A stretch of 56,187 bases of DNA from a virus: IMG/VR virus record IMGVR_UViG_3300036852_000099, positions 1 through 56,187 of that record. One strand, 5' to 3'. Position numbers and translations under genes: made by a program. Within the stretch, counting starts at the first letter, position 1; every line of letters begins with the position of its first letter. Below, in pieces: positions 3,500-50,531 of the stretch. Under the pieces are notes generated by a model. That model was not told the origin of the DNA, did no database searches, and worked only from the letters and a program-made list of their open reading frames with translations.

Positions 3500-3791
3500 C
3501 TTCCCTCCTTTTGAGTCTGGCCTCACTGACTTTGGTGGAAAAGCACACCTTACACTCACTGCGCAGACCGTAGCGGCCTGCAGGCTTACCCTTACGGGTT
3601 CGACGGTAGAAATAGCGAGGGACTGCGGGGTACTCCAGCCCACAGCCCTTGCACTCGATAGTACGGGCACGACAGGATAGGCATACACGCTGCAGGTGCA
3701 GGTGTGGTCGCTCTGACAACCACCCTGCACTACCAGTGAACATGGCCTCCTCGTACTCGTTACCACAGGCACTGCAACTAGACATTGGCAT
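3462..3791 (-). CDS. Small zinc-ribbon protein
   Basis: A 109-aa protein with four CxxC knuckles (CSAC, CLSC, CKGC, CKVC), enough for two structural zinc sites, followed by a very basic tail. This suggests nucleic-acid binding. The start at 3791 uses the GAGGAAG within the end of purB, whose stop it overlaps; a second ATG lies at 3785. It is the gene directly after purB and is translationally coupled to it. The precise role is unknown. Confidence 0.7.
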   Translation of the reverse strand: MPMSSCSACGNEYEEAMFTGSAGWLSERPHLHLQRVCLSCRARTIECKGCGLEYPAVPRYFYRRTRKGKPAGRYGLRSECKVCFSTKVSEARLKRREDDRHRGTPARRL

Positions 3792-5175
3792 TGACTTCCT
3801 CTATAGCCCGAATGCAGGCTAACACGCAGGGTTCGATCACGTGGCGCTCGTTGAATGCCCCGTTCACATTCAAGCTGTCCGGCCAGCGCGATGCTATGAC
3901 GTGCCTCAGCGACTGCATGATGGGGTAGTTCTTCACTAACTCGCCTATGGTGTGGTGCAGCGTGGTGCGATCCGAGTGGCGTGTGCGTAGGGCATACGAC
4001 AGGATGGTGGATGACCACACCCGCGAGTCGTTGAATACGTCACTATCGTACTTCATCTTCAGGGCAGTGACCGCGTTATTCAGGCTGTCCAGCATGTAGG
4101 CCGTGATCGAGGATACCTGCTGCCAGACCACCCGACGCTGGGCTGAGTCGTCCAGGGTTCGCATGTCGATCTGGTCGGCTGTAATGCCCCATGCACCAGT
4201 ACACAGGCTGTGGACTAGCTGCGACAGTGACGACAGCTGCTCCCACGTGGCTGGGTTGTGCTTGTGCGGCATGGCCGATGACCCGACTACACCGGATTCG
4301 TCCCACCACTCGCCCTCACTGTACAGGAATCGGGCGGTGATGGCCAGTCGGTGAATAGCCGCTGCTACTCGGTCTATCAGTGCAAGTAAGGCGTACTCGT
4401 TGTGGCGCGGGGCAGTCTGGGTGGCGTGTTTGGCCAGTTCCATGACCGTTGGTGGTATACGCATGTGATCACACACGGATGCTAACACGTCGCGTTCGAA
4501 CAAGGTAGAGGATAGGTCTACCTCGCGACGGATGAAACGACGCTGGACGTGGCTCGTGCCAACTGCACCGCGCACCGACTTGGCCTGAACCTTGAACTTC
4601 TCCAGGTCGAGAAAGATGCCCTGGAACTCGACCATGTGACCCATCAGCCGGAAGCCCTGCGTGATAGGCTCGGCTACCTGCATGTGGGTGTAACCTCGGC
4701 ACGGGTAGTCCTTAGTTGCTGCCACCTGTCGTGCCATCATCCGCACAACCCGCCGGAGCAGGTGTCGAATCTCAGTGACAGTCTGGGCTATGCGAACCGA
4801 GTCGACCAGATCGACCACATCGCTGCTCGTCATATCCAGGTGTACAAGGTCGTGTGGCATCGAACCACCGTCCTTTTCAACTAGGCGGTGGACTGCCCCT
4901 TGTGCCAGTTGGCGCAGGGCTTCGACCTCGTGACCGACCTCGCGTTCGTGGGTACGGACTGCCCTTACTAGTGCGTCCAAGCCCAAGTCGAACCACTCAT
5001 CGTTGTACTCCAGCAAGGCTTCAGCGGTAGTGACGAATGACAGGTCGCTTATACCTGCATAGTGCTTGGACTGGCACAAGGCCACCATCGCCCAGACCTG
5101 CAGCATCAGGCTGTACCGTTGCCCGTCATCCCAGATGTTGTCCATGTCGTTGGTAGTGTAGCGGCTGGCGTTCAT
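3778..5175 (-). CDS. purB: Adenylosuccinate lyase (PurB-like)
   Basis: A 465-aa member of the fumarase/aspartase superfamily, close to the usual PurB length. PurB removes fumarate from adenylosuccinate (and from SAICAR). Visible motifs: HEVEAL near residue 82, TSSDVVD at 117-123, the catalytic THMQVAEP block with His164, the signature loop GSSAMPHKHNP at 298-308, and LDDSAQRR near 341. All positions expected for activity are present. The start at 5175 was chosen because ATG overlaps the upstream stop (ATGA) with AGGTGAGG 5 nt before; the frame stays open upstream to 5358, but that extension lies inside the neighbour. In a phage that also encodes PurZ, the natural role is to convert the dGMP-aspartate adduct to 2-amino-dAMP. 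That role is inferred; the family call is firm. Confidence 0.95.
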   Translation of the reverse strand: MNASRYTTNDMDNIWDDGQRYSLMLQVWAMVALCQSKHYAGISDLSFVTTAEALLEYNDEWFDLGLDALVRAVRTHEREVGHEVEALRQLAQGAVHRLVEKDGGSMPHDLVHLDMTSSDVVDLVDSVRIAQTVTEIRHLLRRVVRMMARQVAATKDYPCRGYTHMQVAEPITQGFRLMGHMVEFQGIFLDLEKFKVQAKSVRGAVGTSHVQRRFIRREVDLSSTLFERDVLASVCDHMRIPPTVMELAKHATQTAPRHNEYALLALIDRVAAAIHRLAITARFLYSEGEWWDESGVVGSSAMPHKHNPATWEQLSSLSQLVHSLCTGAWGITADQIDMRTLDDSAQRRVVWQQVSSITAYMLDSLNNAVTALKMKYDSDVFNDSRVWSSTILSYALRTRHSDRTTLHHTIGELVKNYPIMQSLRHVIASRWPDSLNVNGAFNERHVIEPCVLACIRAIEEVNANV

Positions 5176-5465
5176 ACCCTCACCTTGAAGCGGGGTACGA
5201 CGCACACCAAATAGCTCTGGCGCGGCATGTAGGGTGGGGATTCGACTACAACGACAAGACCACCCTCCCCCAAATCGCCCACGATCCTGCCCTCTGTCCA
5301 TACGTCCTCCGTCTGGCCTACGGTCTGGCCTCCACCGTCGATAGTGAGTACGTGGCATGGTTCAGTACTCCTAGCCCATGCCTGCCGCGCTGCATCGAAG
5401 AGGTTCGCACCGCCTTCTTTGCGCATAAACTCAGGTCGGTTGTCCGTGTGGTTTCCGTTGTTCAT
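5172..5465 (-). CDS. Hypothetical protein upstream of purB
   Basis: A 97-aa protein. Its second half (GRIVGDLGEGGLVVVVES) looks like a small beta-barrel of SH3 type, a weak inference. It is coupled at both ends by ATGA overlaps: to the gene before it and to purB after it. The function is unknown. Confidence 0.7.
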   Translation of the reverse strand: MNNGNHTDNRPEFMRKEGGANLFDAARQAWARSTEPCHVLTIDGGGQTVGQTEDVWTEGRIVGDLGEGGLVVVVESPPYMPRQSYLVCVVPRFKVRV

Positions 5466-17473: not shown

Positions 17474-18848
17474 AGGCATAGTAGCCTTCGCCCATGACGT
17501 GATCGGACTGGACGGGTCAACCAAGAGCAAGACTCTAGCACCCTACCAAGCCGATATCCTCAGCCAGTTCGCACGAGACAAGCGTCTGGCAGTCCGAGGA
17601 TTACACGGCATCGGCAAGACCGCCATCGCATCGTGGGTGGTGCTGTGGGCGCTGTCAGTGTTCGAAGGCGATGTGAAGGTTGTGACCACAGCCAGCGCAT
17701 GGAGGCAGTTAACGCATTACCTCTGGCCGGAGATACGCAAATGGGCGCAGGTCTGCAAGTGGGAGGTCATGGACAATGGGGTACAGATCCGATACGGCAA
17801 GGAACTACTGGAGTACTCGATCAAACTGAACGCCAAAGAAGCCTTCCCTGTTGCGTCGAACAACCCCTCCCTTATTGAGGGTGCGCATGCCTCTACGCTG
17901 GTGTACGTGTTCGATGAGGCGAAGGCGATTCCGGACGAAACGTGGGACTCAGCCGAGGGTGCGTTCTCGACAGGCAACTGCTACGCACTAGCGATATCCA
18001 CACCAGGGGACGCAACTGGTCGATTCTACGACATCCACAGCCGGAAGGCGGGGTATGAGGATTGGGGTATACGGCACGTCACACTAGACGAAGCCATAGC
18101 TGCTGGGCGGGTCGACGCAGATTGGGCAGAAAAGCGGCGGATACAGTGGGGCGAGAACAGTCCGGTGTACCTGAACCGCGTATTAGGCGAGTTCAGTAAG
18201 AACGACCCGCATGCCCTCATCCCGCTGCAGTGGGTGGAGGAGTCCAACAACCTCTGGCATGAGATGGGTGGCAAAGGCAAGAAGGAAGACAGCCTGACAT
18301 ACGGCTTGGACGTTGCGTGGCAGGGCGATGACAAGTCCAGCCTAGCCCGTAAGCGGGGTGTCGTGGTCGAGTCCCTGGAGATGTACGGAAACTACGACCC
18401 GATGGAACTGGCTGGAATGGCCATAGTCCAGATGGCTGGCGATAAGGAGTCCGCCATAGCAGTCGACTCCAACGGCATCGGTGCAGGGGTATACGCACGA
18501 CTGAACGAACTCGGCTACAACGCAGTACCCTGTAACGTGTCCGAGGGTACAGATGAAAGGGACGAGTCTGGCGAGTTAGGGTTCTTCAACCTGCGATCCT
18601 TCATTTGGTGGAGGATGCGCGAGTTGCTCGACCCGAAGAACCCAGACCGCATAGCCCTCCCTCCTGATGATGGTCTTACTGGCGACCTGACTGCTCCGAA
18701 GTGGTCACCGACTAGTAAGGGTCTGATCAGGGTAGAGGGCAAGGAAGACATCAAAAAGCGGCTGAAACGGTCAACCGACTCAGCTGATGCAGTGGGTCTG
18801 GCAATCTACGCGGATATTGAAACACAGGCATGGACGGAGATATGGTAG
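17358..18848 (+). CDS. Terminase large subunit
   Basis: A 496-aa packaging motor. The ATPase half has Walker A GLHGIGKT (residues 81-88) and Walker B VYVFDE (182-187). The nuclease half has the expected acidic positions: TYGLDVAW, IAVDSNG and DSADAVGLAIY. It cuts and pumps DNA into the prohead with the small subunit and portal. The start is uncertain: ATG at 17358 or 17364 share the AAGGCGG site, and GTG at 17427 would reduce the overlap with the small subunit. It overlaps the portal fusion gene by 19 bases. Confidence 0.93.
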   Translation: MSMTLRYSPESKLTSKQRLGQSLVEGLSPSKHRNYQSPEGIVAFAHDVIGLDGSTKSKTLAPYQADILSQFARDKRLAVRGLHGIGKTAIASWVVLWALSVFEGDVKVVTTASAWRQLTHYLWPEIRKWAQVCKWEVMDNGVQIRYGKELLEYSIKLNAKEAFPVASNNPSLIEGAHASTLVYVFDEAKAIPDETWDSAEGAFSTGNCYALAISTPGDATGRFYDIHSRKAGYEDWGIRHVTLDEAIAAGRVDADWAEKRRIQWGENSPVYLNRVLGEFSKNDPHALIPLQWVEESNNLWHEMGGKGKKEDSLTYGLDVAWQGDDKSSLARKRGVVVESLEMYGNYDPMELAGMAIVQMAGDKESAIAVDSNGIGAGVYARLNELGYNAVPCNVSEGTDERDESGELGFFNLRSFIWWRMRELLDPKNPDRIALPPDDGLTGDLTAPKWSPTSKGLIRVEGKEDIKKRLKRSTDSADAVGLAIYADIETQAWTEIW

Positions 18849-21800
18849 AAAACGCACTGCTACAGCCATCTGCTATCCTCCCCTTCGATCCGGATGCTAT
18901 CACCAGGGCAGTCCAGAACCCTGAAGACGGGGATGGTGAGCGCTACGTCATCATGAACGACGACTTAGTGCCGTATTCAACCTACAGGTCGAGCTTCCAC
19001 ACTGCGTGGGAGCGGTCACTGTCTGGCCTGCAGGTTAGTGAGCAGGCTAAGCAGCAGGCATACGCGATATCCGCTGCAGCATTCGCAGCTACTCAGTACC
19101 GCTGTCTGACCATATCGCAAGTCCCTGGTGTGATAGTCGACCAGTCCAAGAACGATCCGGTGGAGTGGCATCCGCTTATTGGGTTCATGCCCTATATGGG
19201 GAAGCTCATGTGGCAGATCGAAGTGTCGCTGCTGATTTGGGGCGTATGCTACCTCAAGAAGGTGTACAACCGCTACGGCTACCCATCGAGCCTCTGCTGG
19301 GTGCATCCTGAGGATATCACGCCACAAACCGACCAGTACGATGAAGTGTACGAGTACTACGAACGCATGAGCGGCGTGGCCATCAAGCGTCATCAGATGG
19401 TGGAAATTCGGACGTTCGACCCTGACAGGTCACTGCAGGGGAAGTCGGCATATGAAGTCGCCATGTCCCACATCACTACTGAGCGCAATCTCGTGATGCA
19501 TGCTGGGTCGTTCTTCTTTAACTCAGCGCGTCCCGATGGCATCCTGGTTTCGAAGACCCGACTGGATAAGGAGGGTAAGCTCAAGGCCAAGAAGGATTGG
19601 GAGCAGTTCAAAGGGTCTGGTAACGCGTGGCAGACTTTCGTGTCGGGTGGCGATTGGGACTGGATACCCATCACGATTCCACCTGTCGACTTGGCCATGA
19701 CTGAACTGAAGGACGGGTCACAGAAGGACGTATGCGCTATCTTCCGGACTAACGGCGCTCTGATCGGTCTGGCCAGCGTCTCCGACCCGCTATCGGCGGG
19801 GTCTACACTGGCGACAGTTAAGCGGAATCACGTCGAAGCTGTCACCCTGCCAGAGTACAACGACATCGCCCACGACATGAACACGCAGTGGCTCTGGACT
19901 GACTTTGACGAGAAGAACTACTACACCCTGATAGCCAACGAAGCCGACATGCCGATCTTGTCGGATGTGTCAGGGGAAATGTCCACAGTTGCAGTGAACC
20001 TGACTAACCCGCTCAACCCTGTGGTCGACTACGACGAAGCGCGTAAGTTCATGAACCTATCACCCCGCGAGGGGTACATAGGTCGACCACCGGATCAGTC
20101 ACTGGCTATGGTCAACGGTACACTGATCACGGTTAACGAGGGTCGGCAGTTCCTGAGTCTTGAACCGTACCAGATTGACATGCTGAAGACACCAGACGGT
20201 AAGCTGATCCGAGCGTCTGATCTCGGCAAGTACCTGGATGCCACGATGGAACTGATAGTAAGCCCACCTGCTCCCCCAGCCGGAGGCGGATTCGGTGGTG
20301 GGTTCGGTCTGACAGGTGGTCAGCCCATGCTCCCATCCGGTGGACAACCACAGCCACCCACTGCACCGACACCGAATAACCCTTACGACGCATTCCGGCT
20401 TCCACTGTCGAACTCGCGTTCTGGCAGCGGGTGTGCAGTCGTGCTGCAGTTCAGTGGTGATGAGTTGGTGAGGTCTATCCAGACCATCCTCAAGACCCAA
20501 CTGCCAGACAGCATCGCCCATGTCTGGTGTGATCCTAAGGACTTCCACCTTACACTGTACCAGTGCGAGGTATGCTCGATGGCTCAGGAAACCGAGCTAT
20601 ACTCAGCCCTGAATGTGACCAAACCTCTCCCCGTCATGGTGAAGGGTACTACCTCCTTCCAGCAGGACGGGTATATGGTCTTGGTGCTGCAGATCGAACC
20701 ATCCGAAGAGTTAGTGGCGCTGCAGTCGAAGATCTACGAGAAGGCTGAGTCGATTGGGATCACCAGTTCATCGGACTACAGCGAACCGTCGAAGTGGAAG
20801 CCCCACATCACCGTAGCCTACCTTGATCCGGAGACACCCATCGAGGAGTCGTTGTTCAATGTCCAAGTTCAGCCAACCGCCATCGCAGTTACTAAATCGG
20901 AGTACCAGCCTACTTACACCAAAGATATCGCTGCTGCACCTAAAGAGGAAGTGGGTCGAGGACGCAGGTCGAATACACCCTACGTGGAGGTTGCAGTCGA
21001 CTTCGCCAATAACGCCTTCCTTAAGACCGCACAGCGTGTACTGTCTCATTGGGCGGCGACGGAGGGAGGCATAGAGGTCAACTGGTATGACCCAGCCACC
21101 TTGCGTATGCCCCTGATAGAGATGCAGAACCTCACCTCCATGCAGGCGGCACGGGCTATGGAACTGGTGTCCTCGGCTGGTATGGCCAGGGCAGATGTGT
21201 ACACGGGTGAATACGCGATCCGCGACGGTCAAATAGGCGTGGTGGTTGCAGCGACTGATGAGGTCGACAACATCCGTAGTGCAGCGATGCTGCAACTGGA
21301 CGAATTAGCAGATACCTTCCATGCCGAGGGATGGTCACCGTTTGTGCCACTAGGGGCGATCCAGGGCGAGTCCGAGGCTCGGAGTCTATGGGCTTCCGAT
21401 GGTTATCCGCTGGTACTGTCGGCTATTACCATGTACACGGGTACACTGCGTCGTGGGCGCTGGGAGTTGCGCCACAAGACGCAGGTATCAAAGGAACTGG
21501 TCAACTGGCAGCGGGTAGTAGAGCGCAAAGGTCGCGATCACTGGTTCACACCAGAATACGCAGGTCAGCTGGTGTCGGACTTCGTACGGTCAGCCCTGCA
21601 AGACACCGATGCCACTATCGATGAGGTATTCGCACGGGCTAAGGAGATCGAAGAGTCCGGCCTGACCTACGTCGATCCTGATATCGAACCCACACCAGAG
21701 GAGGCGCTGGAGTATTGGCGCAACTACGACGAGGCTAAGGCCGACATAGGGCAGGACTGGTACTCGTACATGACTAGGGTTCTACCGGATATCTTGTCGT

Positions 21801-23284
21801 GGATCAAGACGGAGACCAAGCCATCCTCGGTGACCGAGGTTTTGGCACGACACCACGATAAACTCCGCGACGATTGGGTAGGGACGGAGGAGAATCCTGG
21901 TGCACTGTACTCGGTGGTTCTGGCAGGCATGGCGGCTGGGAACGAGGCACTAGTTAAGGGTGTCAGCATGAACCCTGAAAGCCGCGTTGCAAAGGTCGGT
22001 GTGGCCATCGAGTGGGATCTCCTGTCCACACAGGCTCGTGACTTTGCCAGACAGTACACCTACAAACTCATCAAGGGTATCGACGCGACGACTGCCAGGA
22101 TGGTGCAGGGGATATTCGATGAGTGGACTACTACAGGCAAGCCATTCACGGAACTGGCCAAGGCGCTGGAGGTCGTGTTCAAGGATAAACAACGCGCTGC
22201 ACAGATAGCCCAGACCGAGGGTATACGGGTCTATAACGAGGGCGCATTCAAACGCTGGACGGATGTGGGTGTTAAACGGGCTAAATGGCGCACAGTCCAG
22301 GATGGCATCGTCTGTCGGGTATGCAAGCCACTGAATGGTCAGGTGGCTGACATGAAGACAGGCTGGATCAGCCCATCGCGTAAGGGCGGGTTCAAGACCT
22401 ACACCACCTCAGCCCATAGCGGGTGCAGGTGCTTCCGGACACCAGACACGACGGGCATACTGGAGGATGTTAAACAGGATTACAAGCCCGTAAAGGTCGT
22501 AGCCCCAGCACCACCGCCGATGCAGGTTTCGTCCGAGTTCGTCGCTCCGACACCCGCACGGGTAGCAGGTCTGGATGCCTACCGTGATCTTAACACAGAT
22601 GAGCCGACTGGCCGAATCCGCCAACCTGGAGATCCGGTACTAGGCGAGATTTACAAGCGGAACGGCTACGATGGTAGGCCGAATGTGGTAACGCCAGAGA
22701 CTATCGACCAGCTACGGGCGGATGGTCATAGGATCGTCTATCGTGGTGTCACTGATGCCAAGTTCGCTGAGCAGTTCAGGGACGGGGAGTACTTCCCTGG
22801 TCTAGGGATATACGGCAATGGGACATACACGGCAGTGGGCAGCGATGCCGACAACCACACCGATGCTCTGGACACAGCCCGTGAGTATGCTACCGAGCAG
22901 GGGTACGTGATGCGCATGGCGATCCATAAGGATGCTAAGATCGTCACCCTGAAGGAGATCCAGCAGATGGCGCAGGACGAGCTAGAGGCCTCGGCGGAAA
23001 GAGTACGGCAGGCTAGGAAAGCCGTGTACGCAGTACCCCACGACCACCCTGATGCAGCTGCTCTGGAGGCGACATTCCAGAGTGAGAAGGCCAGGGACAA
23101 CGACGTGCATAGGCTGGTGATGGATGAAGGCAGATATGCCTCCATCATGGGCTACGATGGTGTACTGGTCGAACGCAACTCAGCAGCGGGTCAAGGTATA
23201 GGCGACTACTTGGTGATGCTGAACCGAACCGCCATAGCAGTAGATACGAGAAACTGGAATGGGAAAGTGAGCTATAACGACTAA
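18830..23284 (+). CDS. Portal / tandem 2H phosphoesterase / MuF / ADP-ribosyltransferase-like fusion
   Basis: One 1,484-aa ORF. Residues 1-475: phage portal. 478-517: Gly/Pro linker. 530-700: 2H phosphoesterase (LigT-like) with both motifs, H573-L-T and H659-I-T. About 716-846: a second 2H-like unit whose two His are replaced (R759, F838), so probably inactive. About 1010-1205: MuF minor head domain, with C1162-x-x-C1165 and HSGCRC at the end. About 1260-1475: a region like phage ADP-ribosyltransferases: YRG at 1304-1306, GIYGNGTYTA near 1326-1335, then KDAKIVT and GIGDYLVMLN. The portal ring would sit at the DNA entry vertex with MuF inside the head. The extra domains may be cleaved and injected; that is inferred. 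The ART call is less certain than the rest. Confidence 0.85.
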   Translation: MDGDMVENALLQPSAILPFDPDAITRAVQNPEDGDGERYVIMNDDLVPYSTYRSSFHTAWERSLSGLQVSEQAKQQAYAISAAAFAATQYRCLTISQVPGVIVDQSKNDPVEWHPLIGFMPYMGKLMWQIEVSLLIWGVCYLKKVYNRYGYPSSLCWVHPEDITPQTDQYDEVYEYYERMSGVAIKRHQMVEIRTFDPDRSLQGKSAYEVAMSHITTERNLVMHAGSFFFNSARPDGILVSKTRLDKEGKLKAKKDWEQFKGSGNAWQTFVSGGDWDWIPITIPPVDLAMTELKDGSQKDVCAIFRTNGALIGLASVSDPLSAGSTLATVKRNHVEAVTLPEYNDIAHDMNTQWLWTDFDEKNYYTLIANEADMPILSDVSGEMSTVAVNLTNPLNPVVDYDEARKFMNLSPREGYIGRPPDQSLAMVNGTLITVNEGRQFLSLEPYQIDMLKTPDGKLIRASDLGKYLDATMELIVSPPAPPAGGGFGGGFGLTGGQPMLPSGGQPQPPTAPTPNNPYDAFRLPLSNSRSGSGCAVVLQFSGDELVRSIQTILKTQLPDSIAHVWCDPKDFHLTLYQCEVCSMAQETELYSALNVTKPLPVMVKGTTSFQQDGYMVLVLQIEPSEELVALQSKIYEKAESIGITSSSDYSEPSKWKPHITVAYLDPETPIEESLFNVQVQPTAIAVTKSEYQPTYTKDIAAAPKEEVGRGRRSNTPYVEVAVDFANNAFLKTAQRVLSHWAATEGGIEVNWYDPATLRMPLIEMQNLTSMQAARAMELVSSAGMARADVYTGEYAIRDGQIGVVVAATDEVDNIRSAAMLQLDELADTFHAEGWSPFVPLGAIQGESEARSLWASDGYPLVLSAITMYTGTLRRGRWELRHKTQVSKELVNWQRVVERKGRDHWFTPEYAGQLVSDFVRSALQDTDATIDEVFARAKEIEESGLTYVDPDIEPTPEEALEYWRNYDEAKADIGQDWYSYMTRVLPDILSWIKTETKPSSVTEVLARHHDKLRDDWVGTEENPGALYSVVLAGMAAGNEALVKGVSMNPESRVAKVGVAIEWDLLSTQARDFARQYTYKLIKGIDATTARMVQGIFDEWTTTGKPFTELAKALEVVFKDKQRAAQIAQTEGIRVYNEGAFKRWTDVGVKRAKWRTVQDGIVCRVCKPLNGQVADMKTGWISPSRKGGFKTYTTSAHSGCRCFRTPDTTGILEDVKQDYKPVKVVAPAPPPMQVSSEFVAPTPARVAGLDAYRDLNTDEPTGRIRQPGDPVLGEIYKRNGYDGRPNVVTPETIDQLRADGHRIVYRGVTDAKFAEQFRDGEYFPGLGIYGNGTYTAVGSDADNHTDALDTAREYATEQGYVMRMAIHKDAKIVTLKEIQQMAQDELEASAERVRQARKAVYAVPHDHPDAAALEATFQSEKARDNDVHRLVMDEGRYASIMGYDGVLVERNSAAGQGIGDYLVMLNRTAIAVDTRNWNGKVSYND

Positions 23285-41032: not shown

Positions 41033-41461
41033 ATGCTGATGAAACCGAGACGACTTAGGAACGTAGTACGGCACGTGAACCGAGTAGCTGCAGTGATACA
41101 CCTACTCGTCGCACTGGTCGTGCTACTGCACCCATCCAAACCTAGCGAGTTCATTGTGTCAGTGTTGGGTGGATACTTCAGTACCCAAGCTCTGTCGTTC
41201 CTAATAGCTATGGCAGGGGTTAGGTGGGCGATATGGCCGATGACCTCATCCTGGTTGATGCTCTGTTGCCTGCCCATGCTGGTGCTTGCAGCATTCAATA
41301 CCGCATACCTGTTGATTGAAGAAACGCAGTCACTATGGCCTCCTATTGTGTACTACGGCTGTGGTGTCATCGTAATATCAGTTAACTGGTACTATCTACT
41401 GGAGACTGCAGGTGGAAGATTTGACGTTCCTATCGTTCCAAGTTCCGACACCCACACCTGA
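41033..41461 (+). CDS. Four-helix membrane protein, possible holin
   Basis: A 142-aa protein from ATG 41033 (GAAGAGG upstream); the frame also opens at 41015. Four hydrophobic segments: VIHLLVALVVLL, FIVSVLGGYFSTQALSFLIA, LMLCCLPMLVLAAFNTAYLL and YYGCGVIVISVNWYYLL. The N-terminus is basic. It lies at the start of the lysis region and could be a holin or holin partner. It overlaps the next gene by 50 bases. Confidence 0.6.
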   Translation: MLMKPRRLRNVVRHVNRVAAVIHLLVALVVLLHPSKPSEFIVSVLGGYFSTQALSFLIAMAGVRWAIWPMTSSWLMLCCLPMLVLAAFNTAYLLIEETQSLWPPIVYYGCGVIVISVNWYYLLETAGGRFDVPIVPSSDTHT

Positions 41462-42056
41462 TCTAGACCCGACTAATATCGGGTCGGTCATAACAGCCGT
41501 AAGTGTGATCGCGATTTTCATCGCCAATCTTATCATCCAATACAAGGCTGGTAAGAAGGAGATACCCAACCAGTCAAAAGATGTAGTAGATGTGGTGAAC
41601 GAGAATAAGCACCTAAAGGAGAAGGTGGACAGTCTACTGGCAGCTAACACCAAGCTGCTGTCCATGACGAACCTCGGCACGATAGTCTGCATCGAGGACG
41701 ACCCGAATGACACCGACCTGCTACGCAGGCAGCTGAAACGGATCGGGCTGGCCAATCCGGTGGTGTGGTTCGATAGTCTGGAGATGGCCTACATCTTCAT
41801 TGGTGAAAACGCGGTGCTGTTCATCATGGTCGACGTTAGCATGATAAGCAATGGCTTCCGATTTCTAGAGACGCTGAAGGACAACCCTGACACCAGGGAT
41901 ACACCCATCATACTGGTGTCAGGGACGCAGGTGGAGGACATCACAGGATACCGGAAGGGTGCTATAGGCTACTGTGAAAAGCCAGTAAACATCGAGAAGC
42001 TGCTGAATGTACTGAACCTTCACGGGTTCGACATGAGTATAAGGATGGTACTATGA
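41412..42056 (+). CDS. Membrane-anchored CheY-like receiver protein
   Basis: A 214-aa protein with a GTG start and GGAG 7 nt before it. Residues 24-43 form one transmembrane helix, 50-85 a short coiled coil, and 88-210 a response-regulator receiver domain. All key positions are there: acidic pocket E95-D96-D97, phospho-acceptor D141 (IMVDVSM), Ser170 (LVSGTQ) and Lys190 before Pro (CEKPVN). No output domain or kinase is present in the window. A receiver of this kind normally takes a phosphate from a histidine kinase. Coupling to membrane and lysis genes suggests control of lysis timing or interference with host signalling; both are inference. Confidence 0.85.
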   Translation: MEDLTFLSFQVPTPTPDLDPTNIGSVITAVSVIAIFIANLIIQYKAGKKEIPNQSKDVVDVVNENKHLKEKVDSLLAANTKLLSMTNLGTIVCIEDDPNDTDLLRRQLKRIGLANPVVWFDSLEMAYIFIGENAVLFIMVDVSMISNGFRFLETLKDNPDTRDTPIILVSGTQVEDITGYRKGAIGYCEKPVNIEKLLNVLNLHGFDMSIRMVL

Positions 42057-45949: not shown

Positions 45950-46232
45950 ACTCTCCCCTAATAGCTATAGCCTCTGCCTCATCAGCAGTTCGAATTAAAC
46001 CGATACGTGCACCTGCAGCTTTCCATTCCAGCAGCTTCATGCACTGAGCGATGGTCGGGTGGTCGTCATAGCTCTTTTTGGCCTCCATAGCGAAAGCCCG
46101 ACCCTGGTACGATCCAACGAGGTCTGGTTCACCCAGACGCGAGAAGGGTGAGCCGTGAATCTTGATCACGACACACCCCAATTTCTTTAATCGCGCCAGG
46201 GCAGCATCGACCACTGCCTTTTCTAGCGGCAT
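45882..46232 (-). CDS. VRR-NUC domain nuclease
   Basis: A 116-aa stand-alone VRR-NUC protein: GEPDLVG (catalytic Asp), then AMEAKKS (E-x-K), then a conserved Gln in PTIAQ and WKAAGARIGLI. These PD-(D/E)XK-fold nucleases act on branched or flapped DNA. It is complete and lies beside the SNF2 helicase. Confidence 0.88.
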   Translation of the reverse strand: MPLEKAVVDAALARLKKLGCVVIKIHGSPFSRLGEPDLVGSYQGRAFAMEAKKSYDDHPTIAQCMKLLEWKAAGARIGLIRTADEAEAIAIRGEYVGLTEILRIQDETLGTPEDRT

Positions 46233-46963
46233 TAGACCTCCGCTGGCACTTTACGCCATGCACCCAAGCTACGGGCTAGTACCAGGAGGCAATTCTCCAT
46301 GTCAGGGTACACCCACGTATCCAGGTCATGCGCTTCGACGTGCTTGGCTAGTTCGTCCTTGTCACCCCACACCACGACTGTCTTGCCCAGCGACTTGGCC
46401 ATCTCGATCTCACGGATAGTACCAAATCCGCGTTTGTCGGTCATGTTGACCACCATGCCCTGACAGCTGGCCAGTGCAGCGCGGTTGATCTGGCTGATGA
46501 AGACCCTAGGCAGCGGTTGGTTGTGTCCTACCTGGAAGGCGGTAGACGGGTCATAGCTGGTGATGCCATAGTTGGCCAAGGTCGACTTGGCGTGTTTCCT
46601 CCAGGTCTTGGCGTATAGCTCATCAACCGCGTCGATGCTCCCTGCCAGATAGACGGTAGGATGTGGGTGCTGCTCGTCGCCTAGGATCGGGATTTCCTCA
46701 CTGCCCCATGACCCATCCAGCAGCATCTTCCCGATTAGGCCGTAGTTCAGCACGTCCAAGAACGTATCCTCGATACCCTCGAAGTTAGGGGCGTATGCCC
46801 CTGGTCGGGTGAGGTTTAGCAGGCGGTGGATTTTGTCAGTCAGCCGGACTGCCACACCGTATACACCAGTCTTACTGATGTTGTCACTGCCATAGTCGGC
46901 ATTCTTGCGCTCCATCAGGTCGAGCGCGTCCTTGATGATCTTCTCAGCGGCGGCTTTGTTCAT
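46232..46963 (-). CDS. DUF1599 / nucleoside deoxyribosyltransferase-like fusion
   Basis: A 243-aa protein. ATG at 46963 follows AAAGGGAAC; the frame is open much further upstream, but that part lies inside neighbours. Residues 1-90 match DUF1599 (nucleotide-modification-associated domain 1): MERKNADYGSDN, then LTDKIHRLLNL, then DTFLDVLNYGLI, a helical fold reminiscent of MazG-type NTP pyrophosphatases. Residues 102-232 match the nucleoside 2-deoxyribosyltransferase fold: VYLAGSID and GFGTIREIEMAKSLGK, whose Glu fits the catalytic position. That family moves or removes the base of deoxynucleosides or dNMPs. Set in the PurZ operon, it is the best candidate for dNTP pool editing. Substrate unknown. 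Confidence 0.75.
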   Translation of the reverse strand: MNKAAAEKIIKDALDLMERKNADYGSDNISKTGVYGVAVRLTDKIHRLLNLTRPGAYAPNFEGIEDTFLDVLNYGLIGKMLLDGSWGSEEIPILGDEQHPHPTVYLAGSIDAVDELYAKTWRKHAKSTLANYGITSYDPSTAFQVGHNQPLPRVFISQINRAALASCQGMVVNMTDKRGFGTIREIEMAKSLGKTVVVWGDKDELAKHVEAHDLDTWVYPDMENCLLVLARSLGAWRKVPAEV

Positions 46964-47144
46964 CGTTCTGTTCCCTTTCATGTGACTCGTAGCAGTGTGC
47001 GTGAATGTCCTGGTCGTGCACCCAGGAGTATGCGATCTGGTCGACGTGCACATCGACTTCGTGCTTGCAGTAGGGGCAGATTGGGAATACGCTGTCGAAC
47101 ATGCCCTCATCGCCCTTGTCCCACATATCTCCGATGTTTATCAC
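46944..47144 (-). CDS. Small Cys/His (zinc-finger-like) protein
   Basis: A 66-aa protein with a GTG start overlapping the dUTPase stop. CPYC followed by HEVDVH and HAHC gives a possible zinc site. It overlaps the start of the DUF1599 fusion. The function is unknown. Confidence 0.6.
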   Translation of the reverse strand: MINIGDMWDKGDEGMFDSVFPICPYCKHEVDVHVDQIAYSWVHDQDIHAHCYESHEREQNDEQSRR

Positions 47145-47629
47145 TTTCCTGTACTCCCAAACCCAGCGCTACCACGCTCGGTGTCCTTAGTCGCGTACTG
47201 GAACGCGTCGATTGGCATGAACTCCCACTGCACTGGAATCACCAGATGGTGGAAAAGTATCTGAGCCAGCCTAGTCCCTTTCGGTACTATGACCGTCTTG
47301 CCGTTGGGATTGGACACACCGATGAATAGCTCACCTGTGTACCCCTGGTCGATTATGCCCTCCTGCACCTGCAGATGCCACGTGCGAAAGGTCGAACTGC
47401 GATTGGTGATCCGGCCATACACCCCATCGGGCATCCGGATATGCACCCCTGTGTGAACGTCCACAAAGCTCCCTGGAGGGATCTCGATGTGTTCGATGGT
47501 GTGCAGGTCGTAGCCTGCATCACCCTTATACTTCCGTGTAGGCTGGCACGTGTCCAGATTGGCAGGGGCGAATATGACCGGAGGCGGCGCTAGCACCCAC
47601 AGCGCAAATCGCCTGAGTAGTTGCCTCAC
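47141..47629 (-). CDS. dut: dUTPase
   Basis: A 162-aa trimeric-type dUTPase with all five motifs: DAGYDL (37-42), GRITNRSS (72-79), GIIDQGYTGEL (91-101), GTRLAQILF (118-126) and RGSAGFGSTG (152-161). It hydrolyses dUTP to dUMP and pyrophosphate, keeping uracil out of DNA and feeding dTMP synthesis. The GTG start overlaps the PurZ stop, so the two are translationally coupled. Confidence 0.95.
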   Translation of the reverse strand: MRQLLRRFALWVLAPPPVIFAPANLDTCQPTRKYKGDAGYDLHTIEHIEIPPGSFVDVHTGVHIRMPDGVYGRITNRSSTFRTWHLQVQEGIIDQGYTGELFIGVSNPNGKTVIVPKGTRLAQILFHHLVIPVQWEFMPIDAFQYATKDTERGSAGFGSTGK

Positions 47630-48728: not shown

Positions 48729-50483
48729 TTACTCCGTCATTAGTTGATAGGGCTGGAGTTCGCTCCAGCGTTTGCCGACTGAAACATCCACCTTAAACCG
48801 TACCTTCCACTCCTGGTCGGGCGGTGGTGGGATAGTGACCATAGTCTCTGCAGCGGCATCGATCAGCCAGGGCTTATCCTCCGGTATCTCCATTACTAGA
48901 CTGTCGTGAACGTGTAGTAGTTGGTGTAGACCCTCACCACGCAGGTTGCGCCACACGTTAGTAGCAGCAATCCGCATCATCTCGGCCACACCACCCTGAA
49001 TCAGGCCAGAACTGGCCGTGTTCTCGTAGTTGTGCTCATCGAATCGGCGCAGTCGTCCAGTGAACATCTGGATATACCCGTCGCGCTTGGCAGCACCCAG
49101 ACAGGCTTGGTACAGCCGCTTCATTTCGGGGTGCACCTTGTGGTACTGGTTCAGGTACTCCCTAGCCTGTTTGATGCTAACCTTCAGGTCATTCGCCAGT
49201 GCCTTGTCGCCTATGCCGTACTGCATCGAGAAGTTCAGCCGCTTTGCAGCGTCATAGTCGATGTTGACCCACGCGGCGGTTTCCTTATGGACGTTTACAC
49301 CGTTGTTGATCATGCGCAGCATATTGGTGGCGTTGGCGTAGTGTGCGCCTAGGTAGATCTCCGCCTGCTTATAGTCGGCCACCACGAACAGGTGACCAGG
49401 ACGAGCCACGAAGACCTTCTTGATGCCAGATCGCGGGTCGTTGATGTCGTCTTTGATCTGGCGTGGGATCGCCTGCAGGTTAGGCTCACTGCAGGACAAC
49501 CGACCCGTAGCCGTACCTGTCAGGTTCAGGTTAGGGTGGATCACCCCATCAGCATCCGCATGCTCCAGGAAGGCCTCGTAGTAGGCACTCTTCATTTTCA
49601 CATGGCGACGGTATCGGATGATCTCGTCTACTCCAGGTTTGTCGAGCGTTTCCAGGATATCAACAGCACTGCTACTCACACCAAAGAGAGCCTGCACCTG
49701 CTTGGGGCTGTTAGGGTTGACCGGATAGCCGACTATACGAGCCAGCGCGATCTCGGCCTCCTTCTTTCCGTCGATACTGTCGTGTATGCTCTGGCGTGTT
49801 TGTCGTTTGTCCAGCAGCATACCCCTGCGCTCAATGTCCACTACAGCCAGTTCGAAGACGTTAGTCTCCTGCCACAGCCGATACAGCCCAGAGTCCGCTA
49901 GCTTTTCAGCGTAGAAATCACGGAGTCGTCTGGTGTACAGTACGTCGTCCTCGGCATAGGCACTGACCATACTGGCAGGCAACTTCCACATCTGGCCTTT
50001 GTCACCTACGTGCATACTGGCACGGCGCTTGGTGTAGCCTGCTGCTTTCAGTGCGGCCAGCAGTTCTTCGGATTCATCCGCTGCAGTTGGGTCGATGTAC
50101 TTACGGGCGAGGTACTTCAGGGCGTGGCTGTGTTCATTCTCGTTGTACAGGTGGGCAGCTAACATCGCGTCCTCTATCCTGGTCGGGAACGCGAATCCTT
50201 CATTCAGCAGGTACTTGATATCGAACTTACCATTCCAGAACAGCAGGGTCTTGGGCAGTGCCAGTGCCATGCGCAGCGCGTCCATCTGGCGTGGGTCAAG
50301 GTTCTCGCCTTCCCCATGCCGGAATGGGAAGTAGTAGGACTCATTATCAGCTTCTATGGCGATACCGCAGATCAGGTCACCACCATAGGTGTCCAGTCCT
50401 GTTGTTTCCAAGTCAACAGTGATACGTTCGCAGTCCCAAACGTGCACCATCGCATCATAGAAGTTGTCGCTATTTACCAGCAT
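48729..50483 (-). CDS. Family A DNA polymerase, DpoZ-like candidate
   Basis: A 584-aa polymerase. ATG at 50483 has AAAGGAC before it. The 3'-5' exonuclease is intact: DLETTGLD (D24, E26), NGKFD (88) and YAEDD (176-180). The polymerase domain has TGRLSCSEPNLQAIP (327-340), motif A VVADYKQAE (D370), the O-helix KRLNFSMQYG (414-423) and motif C HVHDSLV (D527), where Ser528 replaces the usual Glu of HDE. It lacks a 5' nuclease. It lies directly before purZ. Polymerases in this position in known Z phages form the DpoZ group; membership here needs a tree. Confidence 0.92.
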   Translation of the reverse strand: MLVNSDNFYDAMVHVWDCERITVDLETTGLDTYGGDLICGIAIEADNESYYFPFRHGEGENLDPRQMDALRMALALPKTLLFWNGKFDIKYLLNEGFAFPTRIEDAMLAAHLYNENEHSHALKYLARKYIDPTAADESEELLAALKAAGYTKRRASMHVGDKGQMWKLPASMVSAYAEDDVLYTRRLRDFYAEKLADSGLYRLWQETNVFELAVVDIERRGMLLDKRQTRQSIHDSIDGKKEAEIALARIVGYPVNPNSPKQVQALFGVSSSAVDILETLDKPGVDEIIRYRRHVKMKSAYYEAFLEHADADGVIHPNLNLTGTATGRLSCSEPNLQAIPRQIKDDINDPRSGIKKVFVARPGHLFVVADYKQAEIYLGAHYANATNMLRMINNGVNVHKETAAWVNIDYDAAKRLNFSMQYGIGDKALANDLKVSIKQAREYLNQYHKVHPEMKRLYQACLGAAKRDGYIQMFTGRLRRFDEHNYENTASSGLIQGGVAEMMRIAATNVWRNLRGEGLHQLLHVHDSLVMEIPEDKPWLIDAAAETMVTIPPPPDQEWKVRFKVDVSVGKRWSELQPYQLMTE

Positions 50484-50501
50484 GGTCGTGTCCTTTGGGT
50501 A

Positions 50502-50523
50502 GGGGTGGTGGCTGTCCCACCCC
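50502..50523 (-). promoter_or_regulatory. Intercistronic hairpin before the polymerase ribosome site
   Basis: A 7-bp perfect stem GGGGTGG / CCACCCC with an 8-nt loop between the DUF669 stop (50532) and the polymerase ribosome site. Same placement as the leader hairpins at 10-16.5 kb. Confidence 0.6.
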
Positions 50524-50531
50524 AATAGAGG

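Follow-up and report, generated by a model that had tools for sequence, protein, structure and literature searches.

A DUF1599-deoxyribosyltransferase fusion in a phage PurZ operon, a candidate two-step enzyme of the Z-phage nucleotide pool

The window analyzed here is the whole source record, a linear virus contig of 56,187 bases. It encodes PurZ, which serves to make DNA in which 2-aminoadenine (Z) replaces adenine. Its minus strand carries a PurZ operon in which a family A polymerase, PurZ, a DutZ-like gene and a small ORF lie, on one strand, upstream of an open reading frame (P0001) that joins two domains:

46232-46963, minus strand: DUF1599-NDT (DmtZ-like) fusion P0001, 243 aa (Pfam, PHROG, AlphaFold2; independent fusions in L016 and L036).
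46703-46963, minus strand: DUF1599/NMAD1 domain, N-terminal, residues 1-87 (Pfam, PHROG; three helices, predicted MazG-like fold).
46232-46660, minus strand: NDT/DmtZ-like domain, C-terminal, residues ~102-243 (Pfam, Foldseek, key residues, phmmer).
46944-47144, minus strand: small ORF of 66 aa separating the fusion from the DutZ-like gene, without a confident family in Pfam or PHROG.
47141-47629, minus strand: dUTPase-family protein P0003, DutZ-like (PF00692, E = 8.7e-26; phage matches).
47626-48723, minus strand: PurZ, 2-amino-adenylosuccinate synthetase (phrog_1211, E = 1.5e-73).
48729-50525, minus strand: family A DNA polymerase, a DpoZ candidate (its matches to the NCBIfam DpoZ models fall short of the cut-off).

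P0001 starts with ATG, has a ribosome-binding-like AAAGGG 9 bases upstream, and its stop codon overlaps the start of the next gene. Pfam places DUF1599/NMAD1 (PF07659) at residues 20-80 (E = 3.3e-4, 21.4 bits, below the curated cut-off of 25) and NDT (PF05014) at residues 104-203 (E = 3.3e-6, 27.6 bits, below the curated cut-off of 28.8), and phrog_1485, which also covers the fusions of L016 and L036, spans residues 3-88 (E = 2.4e-14). In the AlphaFold2 model (mean pLDDT 85.5), three helices are followed by a low-confidence linker at residues 90-97 and an alpha/beta domain. The same DUF1599-NDT fusion is present in two independent PurZ records, L016 and L036, both of which were recovered when either half of P0001 was used as a single-sequence phmmer query (E = 5e-19 to 1e-10), and in L009 and L010 the two halves are separate, neighboring genes. 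Because of these fusions, split genes and searches with each half, the two-domain reading is not due to chance; since L016 and L036 independently display the identical architecture, we also rejected an assembly artefact or a frameshift as its origin. Thus the fusion claimed in the initial annotation exists, with DUF1599 at residues ~1-87 and NDT at residues ~102-240, and it is located in the PurZ operon, as had been stated. No relatives of P0001 were found among bacterial genome contigs.

The PurZ of the window has Ser at the position of PurA Asp13 (motif GGQFGSEGKG), a residue that does not vary when the sequence is aligned with those of Ghobes, Wayne, Spocter and others. On a careful tree this PurZ falls within an environmental clade of 30 rows (bootstrap/SH-aLRT 100/98), and this clade pairs with the Ghobes/Wayne/Spocter (PurZ0) clade (95/96), so that the window stands beside PurZ0 and not inside it. 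The PurZ of phiVC8, SH-Ab and S-2L are found elsewhere in the tree, with that of Bacillus phage vB_BpsS-140. The nearest relatives are L009 and L010 (59% identical), in which PurZ is followed downstream by a dUTPase, a DNA methyltransferase-like gene, and then the adjacent DUF1599 and NDT genes.

The conversion of dSMP to dZMP is thought to be carried out by the host. The window encodes a PurB-like lyase at 3778-5358 on the minus strand (TIGR00928, 150 bits, below the cut-off of 326), and a Lyase_1 gene is also present in Streptomyces phage Spocter and in 6 of 50 PurZ records; judged by its sequence, the lyase is a possible phage-encoded enzyme for this step. Two further genes lie on the plus strand, one for a 1484-aa protein that combines a phage portal with a 2'-5' RNA ligase-like domain and a Mu F-like domain (18830-23284), the other for a phage-encoded response-regulator receiver domain (41412-42056).

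The joint outcome proposed here for the window, the removal of dATP and the supply of dGMP to PurZ, is that of DatZ and MazZ in S-2L and phiVC8. Searches of the whole linear contig with YfbR/DatZ (PF12917), DUF550/MazZ (PF04447), DUF5664, MazG and HD_3 gave no match at E<=1. With profiles built from S-2L, phiVC8 and SH-Ab, DatZ is recovered in all three and MazZ in two, S-2L and SH-Ab, and neither enzyme is detected in the window. The initial annotation, too, had found neither DatZ nor MazZ. Unlike S-2L and phiVC8, the window has no HD-domain or MazZ/DUF550 match, and the folds and chemistry differ. A YfbR/DatZ match above the cut-off was seen in 0 of 50 whole PurZ records.

The C-terminal half is best read, from its sequence, as DmtZ. 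DmtZ of PurZ0 phages is an NDT-family enzyme that converts dAMP to adenine and also transfers deoxyribose-5-phosphate from dAMP to Z (PMC12884076, Nucleic Acids Res., February 2026). It uses a triad of Tyr6, Asn77 and Glu103, with Asn replacing the usual Asp, and Asp12 is required for activity (PMC12884076). Residues Y105, D111, P139, N160 and E185 of the window protein correspond to Y6, D12, P57, N77 and E103 of Ghobes DmtZ, all five being kept; the same Tyr, Asp, Pro, Asn and Glu are kept in 47 of the 51 NDTs at PurZ loci, the exceptions being L040, L034, L020 and L051. In the NDTs of L105 and L107, whose fetched regions lack PurZ and which are two outgroups only, Ser and Asp occupy the D12 and N77 positions. 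Among the fetched loci, phmmer matched the NDT half to the Spocter DmtZ-DutZ (E = 8.5e-6) and to the characterized Wayne DmtZ-DutZ (E = 7.4e-4); a phmmer search of the PDB with the L009 NDT gave no match. By Foldseek the predicted NDT half matches NDT, DNPH1 and MilB with probability 1.00 (E = 4.8e-5 to 1.1e-4), NDT and DNPH1 being among the structures proposed for comparison in the initial annotation. The T. brucei NDT comes first, and VIA-align Z scores reach 15.0 over ~130 residues. The fold of DmtZ has likewise been reported to match NDT, DNPH1 and MilB (PMC12884076).

Some other NDTs in the set depart from this pattern. Those at L020:8928-9593 and L034:9453-9974 lie 5' of purZ; where DmtZ has Asp12 they carry Lys, and where it has Asn77 they carry Asp, so their specificity likely differs from that of DmtZ. 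An apparent "MazG-NDT fusion" in Arthrobacter phage BaileyBlu, which arose from conflicting annotation, is actually one small NDT-like gene: the Baileybluvirus gene (L106:1501-1854, L105:8001-8354) is NDT-like by profile, although one record labels it "MazG-like pyrophosphatase" where others have "nucleoside deoxyribosyltransferase".

The C-terminal half shares with DmtZ (Ghobes AOE44404; the N-terminal half of Wayne ALY10777) the NDT fold, the Tyr/Asn/Glu triad and the additional Asp and Pro, and, as with DmtZ of PurZ0 phages, it lies in a PurZ operon with a dUTPase-family gene adjoining, Wayne-type proteins being found by sequence. It differs from Ghobes and Wayne DmtZ in having an N-terminal DUF1599 partner instead of a C-terminal DutZ, and in accompanying a PurZ of a separate clade. 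The initial annotation had the second half removing the base from dAMP or dATP as part of a new way to bias the pool. The dAMP part fits DmtZ, but dATP is an unlikely substrate because Ghobes DmtZ is inactive on triphosphates (PMC12884076). Nor is the chemistry of this half new; it is already known, since DmtZ has been published for PurZ0 phages (PMC12884076).

DutZ, the partner of DmtZ in PurZ0 phages, is a dUTPase-family enzyme that hydrolyzes dATP and dGTP, and dmtZ is fused to dutZ in 77 of 85 dmtZ genes (PMC12884076). Of the 971 phage records that match P0003 of the window, the best 45 all come from phages of Gordonia, Streptomyces, Microbacterium and Arthrobacter and belong to those groups of actinobacterial phages in which PurZ0 occurs; among the matches listed, P0003 appears most like the DutZ of PurZ0 phages. 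It may thus share the role of MazZ, and because DutZ hydrolyzes both dATP and dGTP, part of the work of MazZ and DatZ may fall to P0003. The idea that the fusion replaces MazZ and DatZ is partly supported, but the fusion is probably not the sole replacement, the DutZ-like neighbor having been overlooked.

The DUF1599 half has invariant K20, G33, K44, R47, D66, D70 and Y74 in 16 sequences including that of the window, and E62 is nearly invariant. Predicted alone (pLDDT 87.2), the domain gave as its top five PDB rows in Foldseek AF_0060 (2p06), three dCTPase/RS21-C6 chains and S. solfataricus MazG. For AF_0060 the TM scores are 0.68/0.76, with the best Foldseek E of 1.4, which is weak, and helical bundles match easily; the VIA-align Z of 10.1 falls short of the caution level that applies to such bundles and can be reached by chance. 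In a profile comparison by hhalign, DUF1599 matched AF_0060 with E = 7.4e-5 and prob 62, as against 0.06-0.6 for control families. The AF_0060 query sequence is identical letter for letter to the 2p06 chain, and AF_0060 itself matches MazG-related proteins weakly. In the hhalign alignment, helix 3 of DUF1599 (E62, D66, D70, N73) is aligned with the acidic ExxxDxxxD...N of AF_0060, and the domain may have in common with the MazG-like all-alpha NTP pyrophosphatases (AF_0060/2p06, DCTPP1, MazG) its predicted three-helix fold. Helix 2 differs, however: the metal-binding EExxE of MazG is replaced by (D)KxxR, in which K44 and R47 are the invariant residues, making canonical Mg-dependent catalysis by DUF1599 doubtful. 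From the predicted fold, the AF_0060 alignment and this replacement, DUF1599 appears to be related to MazG, its active site having changed.

Among 89 PurZ loci, which are not phylogenetically independent, DUF1599 is found in 11, DUF5664 in 19 and a third family, gp51-like, in 41, with zero overlap. For the clade of the window (33 rows in a quick tree, 10 and 16 of them with DUF1599 and DUF5664), such non-overlap has a chance of 2e-4 if relatedness is ignored. On the careful tree, DUF1599 and DUF5664 must each have changed at least 6 times, and the three families swap places repeatedly: L042 (DUF1599) and L023 (DUF5664) are sisters (100/100), with the L023 DUF5664 upstream of the polymerase and outside the slot, and a second sister pair joins Wayne (DUF5664) to Spocter (gp51-like) (97/90). 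DUF1599 mostly occupies the operon slot of DUF5664, which is otherwise taken by DUF5664 or gp51-like. In L009, L010, L019, L035 and L042 it follows the dUTPase as a gene of its own, and in L044, L045 and L046 (11080-11808), immediately behind purZ, it forms a fusion with a dUTPase (DutZ-like) domain. The DUF5664 of Wayne hydrolyzes dATP and dGTP (PMC12884076). DUF5664 (PF18909), the dATP/dGTP pyrophosphohydrolase family of Wayne and SH-Ab 15497, usually has in common with DUF1599 the slot after PurZ(-DUT). The two are mutually exclusive, and by hhalign their sequences are not significantly homologous (prob 2.4, E = 0.019). The 57-kb L016 record carries the DUF1599-NDT fusion and gave neither a dUTPase nor a DUF5664 match, so, provided that the record is complete, the fusion would be the sole candidate dNTP-cleaving enzyme detected there.

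The gp51-like family, named after Ghobes gp51, lies 3' of purZ, where it is present in most of the PurZ0-type loci covered here, is unannotated and has no Pfam match; its members include L011:6082-6645, L014:7113-8426 and those at 39 more PurZ loci, e.g. L075:11020-11427. By hhalign it is distantly related to DUF1599 (prob 79, E = 1.6e-5, 47 columns), and its comparison with AF_0060 gave nothing.

In the non-Z phages L003, L004 and L005, in which no purZ was seen, a YfbR-like 5'-deoxynucleotidase gene lies directly 5' of DUF1599 (L003:2077-3067, L004:4476-10276, L005:1229-2587). In non-Z phage L007, DUF1599 adjoins thymidylate synthase, and L004 also carries thymidylate synthase and DNA polymerase III alpha. 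These neighbors fit a nucleotide-pool role for DUF1599. The earlier suggestion that the first half makes dGMP is plausible from the fold, the operon slot and the complementary distribution, and is weakened by the absence of EExxE.

Taken together, we give an even chance to P0001 being a two-step enzyme of the Z-phage nucleotide pool, in which a DUF1599 dNTP pyrophosphohydrolase feeds the fused DmtZ. The DUF1599 half would cleave dATP, and probably dGTP too, to the monophosphate; the dGMP would feed PurZ, and the dAMP would be supplied to the fused DmtZ, which would split it into adenine and deoxyribose-5-phosphate and could hand the latter to a free Z base to yield dZMP. We infer both activities, their order and any channeling from the domain make-up, the conserved residues, the predicted folds, the operon, the mutual exclusion of DUF1599 and DUF5664 and the lack of a DatZ or MazZ match. 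For the dAMP step, the argument is homology to a characterized enzyme; the dNTP-cleaving step is suggested by the fold, by the slot in common with a characterized pyrophosphohydrolase and by the logic of the fusion. DUF1599 is fused to an NDT or to a dUTPase domain, which parallels DmtZ-DutZ in Wayne: there a dNTP diphosphatase-type domain is joined to DmtZ so that dATP is converted to adenine in one chain, as the window protein would also do. Compared with the Wayne protein, the partner is the all-helical DUF1599 on the opposite side, and the DutZ-like protein is encoded separately.

This adjoining DutZ-like enzyme could do the job alone, and the main rival follows from it: only the NDT half would be catalytic, a degenerate MazG-like DUF1599 would bind nucleotide or hold the enzyme together as a mere binding or structural domain that tunes DmtZ, and the DutZ-like protein would make dAMP and dGMP. 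The loss of EExxE and the fact that, in PurZ0 phages, both hydrolyses are carried out by DutZ (PMC12884076) agree with this rival. Against it, the K/K/R/D/D/Y set is invariant across Z and non-Z phages, DUF1599 is a stand-alone gene in L009, L019 and L042 and excludes DUF5664, and L016 has DUF1599 with no dUTPase or DUF5664 match. We consider this rival less likely than the two-step enzyme, albeit the most serious of the alternatives. Housekeeping unrelated to Z, in which DUF1599 would give dUMP or dCMP for thymidylate synthesis, a role that it may also have in other phages, and the NDT half would sanitize damaged dNMPs like DNPH1, is quite improbable; the thymidylate synthase genes near DUF1599 in L004 and L007 and the fold match to DNPH1 would suit it, but the NDT half recurs with PurZ, lies in its operon and bears the DmtZ signature D111 and N160, which is missing from the two non-Z phage NDTs. 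Still less probable is a plain nucleoside 2'-deoxyribosyltransferase engaged in base salvage on unphosphorylated nucleosides, since the first rank of T. brucei NDT and the retained Pro common to transferases are outweighed by the homology to DmtZ with its common Asp/Asn pair and by the action of DmtZ on monophosphate (PMC12884076).

Returning to the two-step enzyme, we tentatively extend it, at somewhat less than even confidence, to a wider class: DUF1599 and gp51-like proteins may constitute an uncharacterized class of purine dNTP pyrophosphohydrolases with a MazG-like fold and a non-canonical KxxR / ExxxDxxxD site, interchangeable with DUF5664 and fused to DmtZ or DutZ, so that one polypeptide would take dATP to adenine or dZMP. 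DUF1599 is not mentioned in the main text of PMC12884076, and we found no other literature linking it to Z phages; the link is new as far as the literature found shows, as are the predicted MazG-like fold of DUF1599, the recurrence of the fusion, its split genes, the DUF1599-DutZ fusion and the exclusion of DUF5664.

Only part is known of how phages rid their nucleotide pool of adenine and so leave Z as the sole form to enter DNA. Our analysis takes DmtZ-like enzymes beyond the actinobacterial phages in cultivation, to environmental PurZ phages that form a sister clade, and it offers a testable function for DUF1599, whose sole label is "nucleotide modification associated", and for the unannotated gp51-like family beside purZ. 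DmtZ-type enzymes and dNTP pyrophosphohydrolases are also of use in building Z-containing DNA.
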